Below are positions 18,400 to 64,000 of a stretch of 64,000 bases of DNA, in pieces. The stretch is from Bacteroidaceae bacterium (GTDB lineage Bacteria > Bacteroidota > Bacteroidia > Bacteroidales > Bacteroidaceae): the NCBI GenBank assembly GCA_017617235.1, contig JAFZWQ010000032.1:78901-142900 (forward strand). Reading direction: 5' to 3'. The notes beneath the pieces are model-generated. The model ran no database searches and was not told the DNA's origin. It saw nothing but the letters and a program-made list of their open reading frames with translations. Every line of letters starts with the position of its first letter. Positions within the stretch are counted from its first letter, which is position 1. Both the position numbers and the translations under genes were made by a program.

Positions 18400-19641
18400 A
18401 TGAAACGGCTGGTACTGTTAATTTTTCATTTTCTCATTCTCTCATTTTCTCACTATTTATTTGCGCAGCAGAACCGGATTTTCGTAGATAACGTCCGTTC
18501 TTTGCAAGTGATAATAGATGGAGACCCATTGGCTCCCCCCATCGCTGATATGGGTAAAAGACAAGAGTTGAACATTGAATTCGACGAGATGAGTCACGAC
18601 TACCACCGACTCATCTACCACATTCAGCATTGCAATGCCGACTGGACAGAAACAGAGGGATTGTTCGAAAGCGACTATCTATCAGGATTCAACGACCAAC
18701 CTATCGAGGATTACGAAAACTCTTTCAATACCACCCAACTCTACACCCACTACAGGCTCACGCTACCCAATGACGAAACACAGTTGCTGTTATCAGGCAA
18801 CTATTGCATAACGATTTACGAAGACGATGACCGCGATTCTCCCCTATTGCAAGCCGAATTCTGTATAGCAGAGTCCTCGGTTATGAGCATCATGGCTGAG
18901 ATTAGCGGCAATACCGACATCGACTTTAACCAGGAACATCAGCAACTATCGTACCAGATAAGTTATGGGAAACATCGCGTAATAGACCCTTTGCGTGAAA
19001 TCCATACCGTGGTGATGCAGAATCGAAGACTGGACAACCGTGTGGTAAACCTGGAGCCTAATATTCAACATGCCAACGGTATAGGATTCACTCACCAAAA
19101 CAAACTCATCTTCCCTGCTGGCAACGAATTCCACAAATTCGAGATTCTGGATGTACAAAAGCCAGGGCTTAATGTCGATAATATGCGCTGGTACGAACCT
19201 TATTACCATGCTACGTTATATGCCGACAAAGCCGCTCGCAACTACGAATACAACGAGGATCAGAATGGTGCCTTTGTTATGCGAAACGACGATGGAAATA
19301 ACGAAACAGAAAGCGAATACATCTGGGTGCATTTTACCTTTATGCCCAAAGAAGGCAAGGAATACGCCAACAACGAGGTTTACGTTTGGGGGCAATGGAG
19401 CAATGGTCCTCACGACCCCTCATGCCGTATGCAATGGAATCCGGAAAACAAAGCATACGAGGCCTCTGTCTTCCTTAAACAGGGCTACTACAACTACATG
19501 TATTTGCTGGATAATGGTAAGAATATCGACGGCAACTTCCACGAGACAGAGAACGAATATATCATCCTTGTCTATCACCGTCCACAAGGAGGACGCTACG
19601 ACAAGTTGGCGGGATATCGTGTAATGAGAACTGCGAATTAG
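18400..19641 (+). CDS. DUF5103 family, type IX secretion system plug-type protein
   Basis: 413 residues from ATG 18400, preceded by AAAAGGAAG; an in-frame ATG at 18325 overlaps the DUF1460 gene and would bury the signal peptide. Signal peptide LVLLIFHFLILSFSHYLFAQ. The body matches the DUF5103 pattern (NVRSLQVIIDGDPLAPP, HCNADWTETEGLFESDYLSGF, YVWGQWSN near the end). In Flavobacterium a protein of this family plugs the SprA translocon of the T9SS. That fits the two T9SS-type cargo proteins at 28-38 kb. It ends one base from the convergent PqqD-like gene. Confidence 0.8.
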   Translation: MKRLVLLIFHFLILSFSHYLFAQQNRIFVDNVRSLQVIIDGDPLAPPIADMGKRQELNIEFDEMSHDYHRLIYHIQHCNADWTETEGLFESDYLSGFNDQPIEDYENSFNTTQLYTHYRLTLPNDETQLLLSGNYCITIYEDDDRDSPLLQAEFCIAESSVMSIMAEISGNTDIDFNQEHQQLSYQISYGKHRVIDPLREIHTVVMQNRRLDNRVVNLEPNIQHANGIGFTHQNKLIFPAGNEFHKFEILDVQKPGLNVDNMRWYEPYYHATLYADKAARNYEYNEDQNGAFVMRNDDGNNETESEYIWVHFTFMPKEGKEYANNEVYVWGQWSNGPHDPSCRMQWNPENKAYEASVFLKQGYYNYMYLLDNGKNIDGNFHETENEYIILVYHRPQGGRYDKLAGYRVMRTAN

Positions 19642-24394: not shown

Positions 24395-24460
24395 TTTGTC
24401 TGCCGTTTTTAAACCTATTTAATGCACAAAGGGACGGTTTTCACATTCGTTAAAACATTA

Positions 24461-24488
24461 TTTTCACTTTTCACTTTTCATTTTTAAT
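24461..24488. repeat. Heptanucleotide repeat upstream of rnpB
   Basis: In register: TTTTCAC, TTTTCAC, TTTTCAT, TTTTAAT. It covers the place where the -33 box of the rnpB promoter would lie. Confidence 0.6.
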
Positions 24489-24505
24489 TAAATGTTGTAC
24501 CTTTG
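24474..24505 (+). promoter_or_regulatory. rnpB promoter
   Basis: TACCTTTG at 24498-24505 is an exact -7 box about 7 bases before the RNA. The -33 position holds only CTTT, inside a 7-bp repeat. Confidence 0.6.
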
Positions 24506-55817: not shown

Positions 55818-55820
55818 GAA

Positions 55821-55869
55821 ATTGAAGATTGAAGATTGAAGATTGAAAATTGAAGATTGAAAATTAATA
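55821..55869. repeat. Heptanucleotide repeat between AICAR transformylase and the 69-residue gene
   Basis: ATTGAAG, ATTGAAG, ATTGAAG, ATTGAAA, ATTGAAG, ATTGAAA, ATTAATA in exact register, starting 4 bases after a stop codon and ending 11 bases before the next start. The clearest of the 7-bp arrays in the window. Confidence 0.85.
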
Positions 55870-60523: not shown

Positions 60524-60551
60524 TTTGCCCTTAGCCCTTAGCCTTTAGCCC
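60524..60551. repeat. Heptanucleotide repeat between adk and obgE
   Basis: TTTGCCC, TTAGCCC, TTAGCCT, TTAGCCC in register, within the 48-base gap. Confidence 0.65.
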
Positions 60552-60554
60552 TTT

Positions 60555-61127
60555 TTACTTCAAGGTATCCAGGAAGGCAAAGATATTGGCCAGCATCTTG
60601 TCCTTGCTGCCCTCCCAGGTGAAGGTATGACGGATACCTTCCTTCTGGAACCATGCTGCCAAGGGTTCCGTCTGGCTGTGATAAACGGCAAAGCGTTTCT
60701 TGATGGTCTCTTCGTTATCATCGGCACGACCCTGCTCGATGGCACGGTTCAGCAGACGCTTCATCAGCGTGTCCTCGTCGACAATCAGTTCAATCATCAC
60801 ACCCATCTCGTGCTTACGCTCGGCCAGCATCTGCTTCAGGGCCTCGGCCTGGGCAATGGTGCGGGGGAAGCCGTCGAAGATGACGCCCTTACCGGCAGGC
60901 AGACTGTCGTAGGTCTTTGCCAGGATGTCTATCATCAACTCATCGGGAATCAGCTGCCCATTGTCGATGTAACCCTTGGCCGTCTTTCCCAGTTCTGTAC
61001 CGTTCTTTATTTCAGCGCGCAACACATCGCCTGTACTGATGTGTCCCATGCCGTAACGTGCTACAATCTCGTCGCTGTAGGTGCCCTTGCCACTGCCCGG
61101 TGCACCAAAGATGATAATGTTCTTCAT
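60555..61127 (-). CDS. adk: Adenylate kinase
   Basis: 190 residues, the short form without the long LID insertion. P-loop IFGAPGSGKGTYSD, AMP-binding STGDVLRAEI, and DGFPRTIAQAEAL are present. It interconverts ATP, ADP and AMP in the cytoplasm. It lies between hpt and obgE on one strand; the 76 bases separating it from hpt contain a hairpin framed by 7-bp repeats. Confidence 0.96.
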   Translation of the reverse strand: MKNIIIFGAPGSGKGTYSDEIVARYGMGHISTGDVLRAEIKNGTELGKTAKGYIDNGQLIPDELMIDILAKTYDSLPAGKGVIFDGFPRTIAQAEALKQMLAERKHEMGVMIELIVDEDTLMKRLLNRAIEQGRADDNEETIKKRFAVYHSQTEPLAAWFQKEGIRHTFTWEGSKDKMLANIFAFLDTLK

Positions 61128-61133
61128 ATTTTA

Positions 61134-61203
61134 ATTTTCAATCTTCAATCTTCTAATCGAGCTTGCTCGCTTGCGTAGCGCAGAGGAGCAAGAATCTTCA
61201 ATC
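61134..61203. repeat. Heptanucleotide repeats flanking a hairpin, hpt-adk gap
   Basis: ATTTTCA, ATCTTCA, ATCTTCT (61134-61154), then CTTGCTC...GAGCAAG as an inverted repeat, then ATCTTCA, ATCTTAA up to the hpt stop. The core GCTCGCTTGCG is also found in the hairpin after ssrA (54576-54588). Confidence 0.55.
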
Positions 61204-61766: not shown

Positions 61767-61797
61767 CAAAGATAATGAAAATTCATCTATTTATCAA
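61767..61797 (-). promoter_or_regulatory. hpt promoter
   Basis: Minus strand TTG (61795-61797), 20 bases, TATCTTTG (61767-61774). Confidence 0.65.
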
Positions 61798-61825
61798 TTT
61801 TTAATTTTTAATTTTTACTTTTTAA
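61798..61825. repeat. Heptanucleotide repeat in the hpt/nnrD promoter gap
   Basis: TTTTTAA, TTTTTAA, TTTTTAC, TTTTTAA in register, running into the -33 position of the nnrD promoter. Confidence 0.65.
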
Positions 61826-61845
61826 TTTAATTATCCTTAACTTTG
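61814..61845 (+). promoter_or_regulatory. nnrD promoter, start codon at the expected transcription start
   Basis: TAACTTTG (61838-61845) with TTTA in place of TTTG 20 bases upstream. The ATG at 61850 comes only 4 bases after the box, so the message should be leaderless. Confidence 0.55.
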
Positions 61846-61849
61846 TAGC

Positions 61850-62656
61850 ATGAAACTAAAAATCGTGGACATTAAGGTTGCAGATATGCGGGAATTGTGG
61901 CGTCCGCGTCCTGCCGATGGGCACAAGGGGACATTCGGGCACGCCCTTCTTGTGGCAGGCAGCAAAGGAATGGCAGGAGCTGCCGTTCTGGCGGCCGAAG
62001 CATGTCTGCGCAGCGGCATTGGCAAGCTGTCCGTGCAGACGCCCGACGACAACCGCATCATCCTGCAAATCTCCGTACCCGAAGCCATATTGGGCAGCCA
62101 GTCGCCCGACCTGTACGATGCTGTGGGAATCGGTCCGGGCATAGGTATCGACAGCGAACTCGTCCGTCTTTACCTGACCTCGGTGAAACGCCCTATGGTG
62201 CTGGATGCCGATGCACTGAACGTGCTGGCACAGGATGCCGACCTGCAGGCACTCATTCCCCCACACAGCATCCTCACCCCCCATCCGGGTGAGGCGGGTA
62301 GGCTCATCGGCAGCAGTCAGTTAGATGAGGTTGCCCGATATGCCCAAGAACGGCAGGTGTTCATCGTCTTGAAAGGACACCCGACACATGTCTGCATGCC
62401 AGACGGCACCATCATCCGAATGCCAGTTGGAAACTCGGGGATGGCCACAGCCGGCAGCGGCGATGTGCTTACCGGACTCATTACGGGCCTCGTGGCACAA
62501 GGTTACACACCACGCGAGGCTGCCCTGCTGGGTGTGTGGCTACACGGTGCGGCAGGCGATGCTGCAGCCCGCGAAATGGGCGAAGCCAGCATGTTGGCCC
62601 GCGACATCATCCGGCACCTTCCCGATGCCTTCAATGAATTAAAAAGTAAAAAGTAA
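61850..62656 (+). CDS. nnrD: ADP-dependent NAD(P)H-hydrate dehydratase
   Basis: 268 residues, only the C-terminal YjeF domain; the epimerase domain often fused to it is absent. RPADGHKGTFGHALLVAGS opens the ribokinase-like fold, TPHPGEAGRLIG follows, and NSGMATAGSGDVLTGLITG carries the catalytic aspartate. It repairs hydrated NADH and NADPH. The second ATG at 61886 is an alternative start. The last codons and the stop lie inside a 7-bp repeat array. Confidence 0.92.
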   Translation: MKLKIVDIKVADMRELWRPRPADGHKGTFGHALLVAGSKGMAGAAVLAAEACLRSGIGKLSVQTPDDNRIILQISVPEAILGSQSPDLYDAVGIGPGIGIDSELVRLYLTSVKRPMVLDADALNVLAQDADLQALIPPHSILTPHPGEAGRLIGSSQLDEVARYAQERQVFIVLKGHPTHVCMPDGTIIRMPVGNSGMATAGSGDVLTGLITGLVAQGYTPREAALLGVWLHGAAGDAAAREMGEASMLARDIIRHLPDAFNELKSKK

Positions 62657-62668
62657 AAATGTAAAAAC
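62641..62668. repeat. Heptanucleotide repeat over the nnrD stop
   Basis: AAAAAGT, AAAAAGT, AAAAATG, TAAAAAC in register. It encodes the last residues of NnrD and its stop codon. Confidence 0.55.
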
Positions 62669-62675
62669 GAAATAT

Positions 62676-63745
62676 ATGAAACGAATCGTACTTCTCATCC
62701 TCATTTTCAATTTTCAATTTTCAATTTAGCAAAGGCCCAAACCGAGGTCAGCAACTTCGTACCTGGCTCCACCATCGACGGAGTCAACTATTTCCTGCCC
62801 CAAACGGCACTGCGCATAACGGTCGTTGCCGAGAAAAGTGTCACCACACCTGGCGACCTGAACAAATACGCCTTCCGCTACCTGCGTTTGCAGGATGTGC
62901 CCACAGAATCCAAGACTTCGTGGAAAATCAAAAAAATCGACGTAGAACCCTATGGTGTGCCCGACAAATCGAAGGCATATAACATAAAACTGAAGAGCAA
63001 GACGGTAGCCCCGCTGGTATCCCTCACCCACGACGGAATCCTGCTTTCCATCAACACCGAAGCCGAGGAAAGCATACTGCCCGCACTGCCCCAGGGCATC
63101 CCTGCGCCACAGCCGCTGAATCCCAAGCAGTATATGAACCAGGAAATCCTGTCGGCAGGCAGTTCCGCCAAGATGGCAGAGCTCTGCGCCCAGGAAATCT
63201 ACGACATGCGCGACAGCCGAAACGCCCTGATTCGTGGCGAAGCCGACAATACGCCCAAGGACGGCGAACAGTTGAAACTGATGCTCACCCAACTCGACAC
63301 CCAGACACAGGCCCTGGAACAGCTGTTTGCAGGACACACCGAAACCAGCACCGAAGTCTTCAGCTTCAACTACGTGCCCCAGCAGGAAACGGAACGCGAC
63401 GTACTGTTCCGCTTCTCCCAGTTCTCGGGCGTTGTGGACAGAGACGACCTTTCGGGTCAGCCCATATACATCAGCATTCAGAACATGGGCAATCTGCCCC
63501 CCAAACAGGAAGACTACGAAGCCCTCAAGAAGAAAGCCAAGATGGTGCAGGGCATATACTATAATGTACCCGCACGCGAGGCCATCACCATCTTCGACAT
63601 CAACCAAACCCTGCTAAAGGCCGAATGCAACATGGGACAGTTTGGCTACACGGAAATCCTGAGCGACATCCTCTTCAACAAAAAGACCACCACCCGTGTC
63701 ACCTTCTACCAGGACAACGGTGCCATCAAGAAACTTGAACAGTAA
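62676..63745 (+). CDS. DUF4831-family exported protein, frame broken in a 7-bp repeat (phase-off)
   Basis: The ATG at 62676 opens a clear signal peptide (MKRIVLLILIFNFQFSI) that hits TAG at 62727. The mature protein (AKAQTEVSNFVPGSTIDG onward, then a DUF4831 pattern to TAA 63745) is open in another frame from 62729. The break lies in three tandem copies of TTTTCAA. One more copy would give one frame of 358 residues whose signal peptide continues FNLAKAQ; one copy in total would also work. Mature sequence has no internal stops or decay, so this looks like a switchable gene in its off state. A sequencing error is the main alternative. Function of DUF4831 is unknown. Confidence 0.75.
62704..62727. 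repeat. Heptanucleotide repeat inside a signal peptide
   Basis: TTTTCAA three times, then TTT, at the point where the reading frame of the DUF4831 gene is lost. Confidence 0.85.
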
Positions 63746-63746
63746 G

Positions 63747-63792
63747 AAAACTCAAATAAATTTGGTTTTTCGCTCGATTTGCACTATCTTTG
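63747..63792 (+). repeat. 46-bp promoter-bearing repeat, copy 1
   Basis: Identical to 63830-63875. It includes TTTG (63761-63764), 20 bases and TATCTTTG (63785-63792). Confidence 0.9.
63761..63792 (+). promoter_or_regulatory. Upstream tRNA-Thr promoter
   Basis: Exact TTTG-N20-TATCTTTG. A transcript from here would include a CGAG...CTCG hairpin before reaching the second promoter. Confidence 0.65.
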
Positions 63793-63829: not shown

Positions 63830-63875
63830 AAAACTCAAATAAATTTGGTTTTTCGCTCGATTTGCACTATCTTTG
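63830..63875 (+). repeat. 46-bp promoter-bearing repeat, copy 2
   Basis: Second copy, 83 bp after the first, ending 20 bases before the tRNA. Confidence 0.9.
63844..63875 (+). promoter_or_regulatory. Proximal tRNA-Thr promoter
   Basis: TTTG (63844-63847), 20 bases, TATCTTTG (63868-63875). Confidence 0.75.
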
Positions 63876-63895: not shown

Positions 63896-63967
<72 letters not shown>

Positions 63968-64000
63968 CACAAACAAAAGGCGCCATCCCCACCGGATAGC

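Follow-up and report, generated by a model that had tools for sequence, protein, structure and literature searches.

A DUF4831 gene with a signal peptide built from a heptanucleotide repeat, written one unit short of the in-frame form seen in its relatives

Repeats that set the reading frame of exported proteins from within the signal peptide have been described in Neisseria, where, according to the accessible parts of the respective papers, CTCTT repeats in the signal-peptide sequence of the opa genes are associated with documented phase variation (PMC4534519), and AAGC repeats are found in autA and autB, those of autB lying within the signal-sequence DNA (PMC5118866). A screen for phase variation has applied a cut-off of three units to repeat units as long as the one considered here (PMC5953494). 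Heptanucleotides are additionally known as long simple sequence repeats, in the form of intergenic TAACTGA arrays in Beggiatoaceae, cyanobacteria and some Bacteroidetes; the term "signal peptide" is absent from that paper's text in so far as it is accessible (PMC4679880).

We investigated a heptanucleotide array in the signal-peptide sequence of a DUF4831 gene, located in a 64,000-nucleotide stretch of a Bacteroidaceae genome assembly, here called the window. The features of the locus are:

61850..62656, + strand: ORF upstream of the DUF4831 gene, 268 aa
62676..62729, + strand: leader in the ATG frame as written, MKRIVLLILIFNFQFSI then TAG, 17 codons
62703..62727, + strand: exact period-7 run of 25 bases, with three TTTTCAA units at 62704-62724
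62726..63745, + strand: end of the signal peptide (LAKA), intact mature DUF4831 protein and stop, offset by 2 from the ATG frame

The ATG frame is closed by the in-frame TAG at 62727-62729, and the mature frame runs uninterrupted from 62657 to its stop at 63743-63745, with no ATG, GTG or TTG between 62657 and the mature part, so that an alternative start among these codons was rejected. The cleavage site of the signal peptide, ahead of the Q codon at 62738, is a guess by eye. The first-pass annotation had proposed that three TTTTCAA copies separate the frame of the leader from that of an intact mature protein, and that the gene would be on at 3n+1 copies; coordinates and a frame check confirm the former, and the arithmetic of the latter is correct, as the mature frame is offset by 2 from the ATG and the addition of one seven-base unit restores continuity. 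The locus shares with those of the opa/autB type a tandem repeat within the signal-peptide sequence whose unit is not a multiple of three. Adjacent TTTTCAA pairs occur twice in the window and in none of 100 dinucleotide shuffles, ruling out a chance origin of the repeat. The 3' end of the upstream ORF, which we take to encode an NAD(P)HX-dehydratase-like protein, carries a second period-7 array (TAAAAAG, 62636-62660). Downstream, between the DUF4831 gene and tRNA-Thr (63896-63968), an identical 46-base stretch occurs twice (63747-63792 and 63830-63875), presumably resembling a duplicated Bacteroidota promoter.

The mature part corresponds to DUF4831 (PF16115) across the whole profile (positions 2-318 of 318, E 4.6e-123, 410.8 bits against a gathering cut-off of 27); a PDB search with it gave no match, and a literature search for DUF4831 found no paper. 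The gene is near-universal in the genus, being present in 125 of 139 genomes and in 18 of the 18 that are at least 90% complete, and a contig scan yielded a single relative, L039, with 58% identity, in an uncultured Prevotellaceae assembly. Compared with seven relatives, the mature part has a dN of 0.14-0.19 and a dS that is at least 1.2 or saturated; the relatives differ among themselves by 0.15-0.20 for most pairs, one close pair apart, and the window's copy has evolved no faster. The mature frame is under purifying selection, which rules out an old pseudogene; an intact reading frame that stays under selection while off is also characteristic of opa/autB-type loci. The absence of decay noted by the first-pass annotation is borne out by these values, and selection upholds its use as an argument against a dead gene; its further use as an argument for switching is not supported, as arrays of this kind are mostly in frame.

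An in-frame signal peptide was found in all 30 DUF4831 orthologues whose starts were read (L039, and 29 drawn from the 124 further genomes that had a match). By a strict rule, five of 31 DUF4831 leaders, the window's own counted, have period 7 and three have period 8, every one of them among the 14 closest (0.1% in a codon-shuffle control), and octamer arrays lie in the signal-peptide region of some orthologues. The mixture of period-7, period-8 and non-repeat leaders indicates that the leaders of a single gene vary in both the presence and the unit of the repeat. Octamer arrays of the ATTTTCTC kind were also observed at 18421-18452 of the window, and in the leaders of L012, L020 and L022.

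As 7 and 3 have no common factor, every frame of TTTTCAA yields an identical hydrophobic heptapeptide cycle, FNFQFSI, which is free of stops; the opposite strand yields a polar cycle. With signal peptides called by eye and by simple rules, and not with SignalP, some period-7 arrays are predicted to constitute the hydrophobic core of signal peptides (examples being MKRLLLLLIFNFQFSIFNSFA and MKKFLFLLLTFNFQFSIFNFSYAQ). Across the genus, ATGAAR with two units was identified at 22 distinct places, 17 of which are signal-peptide genes by these calls; the array is in frame in 13/13 of these outside the window's genome, nine with perfect runs of 29-34 bases, and in 2/4 inside it. Fourteen places were examined in other genera of the family, of which ten are signal-peptide genes, all in frame, and a clear signal-peptide gene is absent at the other four. 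By raw count, ATGAAR with two units gives 28 rows for each repeat strand, and a strand bias arising from proximity to an ATG alone was dropped; none of the ten antisense places examined, from the 28 rows, is a signal-peptide gene, versus 17/22 in sense.

Ten proteins with repeat-built leaders were scanned for domains, and included an outer-membrane barrel, a porin, a KduI-like protein, peptidases of families C69, M16 and S41, an alpha-N-acetylglucosaminidase, a phosphoesterase, a protein with a nucleotidase domain, and one with sub-threshold BNR matches only. Among signal-peptide genes called by the simple rule, period-7 self-similarity was found in 5/65 in a sample of the window's genome (period 8, three; periods 4-6 and 9-11, none) and in 5/67 in genome G095 (other periods, at most three), and in none of the 35 in G110 (period 8, four) or the 31 in G125 (period 9, three). 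The period-7 share thus varies by species, and its surplus over other periods is small in numbers. The principle of a repeat within a signal peptide is already known from opa and autB; our literature searches found no paper on repeat-built signal peptides for this bacterial group, and signal peptides made of dispersed heptanucleotides would, as judged from sequence, be without a precedent that we could find there.

The window's genome (an assembly 85.5% complete, in 50 contigs) contains 42 period-7 arrays of many different units in 277,737 sampled bases, as opposed to 11 arrays at period 8 and at most five at each other non-harmonic period, an excess of the sort that defines long heptanucleotide repeats. 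Twenty stretches from relatives contain 41 period-7 arrays in 391,218 bases. The exact three-unit form of TTTTCAA occurs 13 times in the window's genome and has matches in 41 of the 139 genomes, with 241 matches in total versus 18 for a reversed control (hand-summed over the 139). Further period-7 arrays in the window, besides that at the end of the upstream ORF, were observed at 24460-24489 (TTTTCAC), 55818-55865 (ATTGAAG), 60524-60553 (GCCCTTA), 61121-61158 (TCTTCAA) and 61791-61828 (AATTTTT), several of this set sitting right upstream of ORFs.

Judged by eye, with unclear places excluded and additional porin and KduI orthologues not counted, 28/29 repeat-built signal peptides are in frame outside the window's genome and 5/7 inside it; the excluded places include L060 and L061, which are cut by contig ends, and L094, L095, L104, L119, L162 and L258. 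The in-frame cases in the window's genome are L001, L002, L004, L008 and L063, and the out-of-frame ones are the DUF4831 gene and L173 (contig C16, position 4852). The single out-of-frame case among the 29 is L108, a porin gene of genome G021. Each of the three out-of-frame arrays lacks one unit, four is the usual number in the in-frame relatives, and all 13 classified leaders of the genus outside the window's genome that have perfect runs of 28-34 bases are in frame. L173 encodes a putatively exported KduI-like protein (PF04962), and an in-frame signal peptide is present in all ten of its orthologues examined. KduI is usually regarded as cytoplasmic; judged by eye, L173 and its orthologues L336-L345 are members of the KduI/IolB family in this genus that carry clear signal peptides.

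The porin orthologues provide a series of unit numbers between species. L108, with three AATTTTC units, is out of frame; its orthologue in G104, 96% identical, carries one more, four, and is in frame. The leader is likewise in frame in G036 (L349; four units of another heptamer), in G050 (four mixed units) and in G123 (one unit; the match has one internal TGA), and the leaders in G016, G037, G090 and two distant orthologues are free of arrays. With four, four, four and one units in frame and three out of frame, the 3n+1 rule of the first-pass annotation is real between species. The series suggests that units, presumably through slippage, are gained and lost while the frame is maintained.

We additionally identified evidence that bears on the assembly itself. 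None of the 13 TTTTCAA arrays in the window's genome has four units, and no four-unit TTTTCAA array was found in G021, so that all three out-of-frame cases fall in two assemblies without one; such arrays occur in 17 of the 139 genomes, and G095 has 11 four-unit matches among about 28 arrays. Contigs of the window's genome end at period-7 or period-8 arrays at 6/57 unselected ends (of 100 in the assembly, the two preselected ends, on C34 and C38, being omitted), versus 20/4500 random interior places, which is about 24 times the chance rate (p 5.6e-7). In four genomes with four-unit arrays, 0/50 contig starts lie at arrays; with 30 contig starts from G018, G019 and G021 added to the ends of the window's genome and seven reading as N dropped, the comparison is 8/80 versus 0/50 (p 0.023, counted by hand; contig C1 of G018 was known beforehand to begin in an array). 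Among the matches listed, seven arrays begin within four bases of a contig start, all in genomes without a four-unit array (7/51 rows, versus 0/99 rows for the others; hand-counted), and contigs C34 and C38 terminate in arrays of one kind and overlap by 25 bases. A perfect run of at least 28 bases repeats its own 21-mers, so that full periods can be lost from it in k-mer assembly; the contraction required at the DUF4831 array would be from 32 to 25 bases.

Other observations go against such a contraction. The window's assembly does retain longer exact period-7 runs (28, 28 and 32 bases), so that a strict 27-base ceiling set by the assembly (k = 21) does not fit cleanly and was rejected, and some contig ends overlap by 114-131 bases, which points to the eventual use of large k-mers. 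In the window's genome, five signal-peptide arrays whose runs measure 23-28 bases keep the frame in the written sequence. Counted over all heptamers, long runs are weakly depleted (at least 28 bases in 2/32 unselected arrays here, versus 12/74 in three relatives). G036 has no four-unit TTTTCAA array, yet has the four-unit array of another heptamer in L349, indicating that a missing four-unit TTTTCAA is not a strict sign of contraction.

We propose, with a probability of roughly 55%, that the DUF4831 signal peptide is built on a repeat whose unit count is held by selection, and that its three-unit state is a contraction made by the assembler. The hydrophobic core would be a tandem heptanucleotide of the genome-wide type, serving as a core in every frame, with the unit count deciding the frame downstream; counts of 1 modulo 3 would give the exported protein, and in relatives selection would maintain such a count, mostly four. 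What is written here as three units would then be a one-unit contraction, the loss of one period from a perfect array of 32 bases, and probably arose in assembly rather than in the dominant genotype, so that the organism itself probably carries the gene in the on state. The first-pass annotation had itself named an assembly error, with four copies in the finished sequence, as an outcome that would overturn its view, and the frequent contig ends at arrays and the lack of four-unit TTTTCAA make this a serious possibility. We rate it no lower than, and on balance somewhat above, phase variation, in which slipped-strand mispairing would toggle DUF4831 and similar exported proteins and the sampled population would be mostly off. 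That explanation, which we regard as possible but doubtful, is consistent with the frame arithmetic, with the intact and selected mature part, with L173 as another out-of-frame gene of this genome, alongside the G021 porin, and with unit numbers that differ between orthologues; it has precedents in opa (PMC4534519) and autB (PMC5118866), and three units reach the published screening cut-off (PMC5953494). However, an in-frame share of 28/29 outside and 5/7 inside the window's genome far exceeds one third, the on and off phases are not both common across sequences, as would be expected at an opa/autB-type locus, unit numbers are mostly four with no spread over three phases, and the three failures all go in the same direction, leaving the switching of DUF4831 put forward by the first-pass annotation unsupported. 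Arrays of three or four units should moreover slip rarely, a view expressed on three-unit autB in the accessible part of its description (PMC5118866), and the contig ends at arrays also count against phase variation, although mixed unit numbers in a population could likewise break contigs.

A fixed loss of one unit, meaning a recent frameshift heading towards a pseudogene and no regular switching, would account for an array one unit below the usual in-frame form and, if recent, for the absence of decay; we consider it improbable, as the gene is near-universal, its 30 examined orthologues are all in frame, and two such losses would be required in one genome. Least credible, and very improbable, is that the three-unit gene is translated regardless, by way of a ribosomal frameshift or a non-standard start: no stop interrupts the mature frame back to 62657, but that frame has none of the three start codons ahead of the mature part, a classical slippery site was not seen by eye, and the frame is continuous in the relatives examined. 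Should switching nonetheless operate, one could speculate, with some reserve, that a commensal of the Prevotellaceae kind uses dispersed heptamers as ready-made, frame-independent cores, switching part of its secretome gene by gene through the gain or loss of one unit. This might tentatively be seen as an opa-like contingency system covering everyday exported proteins, its arrays emerging de novo and differing in unit from one species to another, and the part concerned could conceivably amount to the five of 65 signal-peptide genes here and, over relatives, to outer-membrane proteins, peptidases, glycan enzymes and DUF4831.

Whether or not switching occurs, signal peptides made of heptamers show that fast birth and replacement of export signals are possible, and illustrate the tolerance of hydrophobic repeats open in all frames at gene starts. 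In metagenome assemblies, the reading frame called at arrays of this sort may be unreliable, and apparent phase-off genes need read support.

In comparison with the known systems, as far as their descriptions are accessible, the DUF4831 locus resembles opa in that the repeat unit in the signal peptide is not a multiple of three and its count sets the frame of an intact mature protein (PMC4534519). It differs in that switching is documented for opa, whereas arrays of the DUF4831 type are short, mostly in frame, and found in several unrelated exported proteins. The array of autB has the same position and logic, with few units and a tendency towards the off state in meningococci, but its units vary from 2 to 10 within clonal complexes (PMC5118866), whereas the DUF4831 arrays were compared between species, each represented by one genome. 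Finally, the TAACTGA repeats are likewise dispersed heptanucleotides, many of them right upstream of genes (PMC4679880); they have one main unit and are mostly intergenic, whereas the arrays described here have many units, and their hydrophobic strand would form the core of signal peptides.
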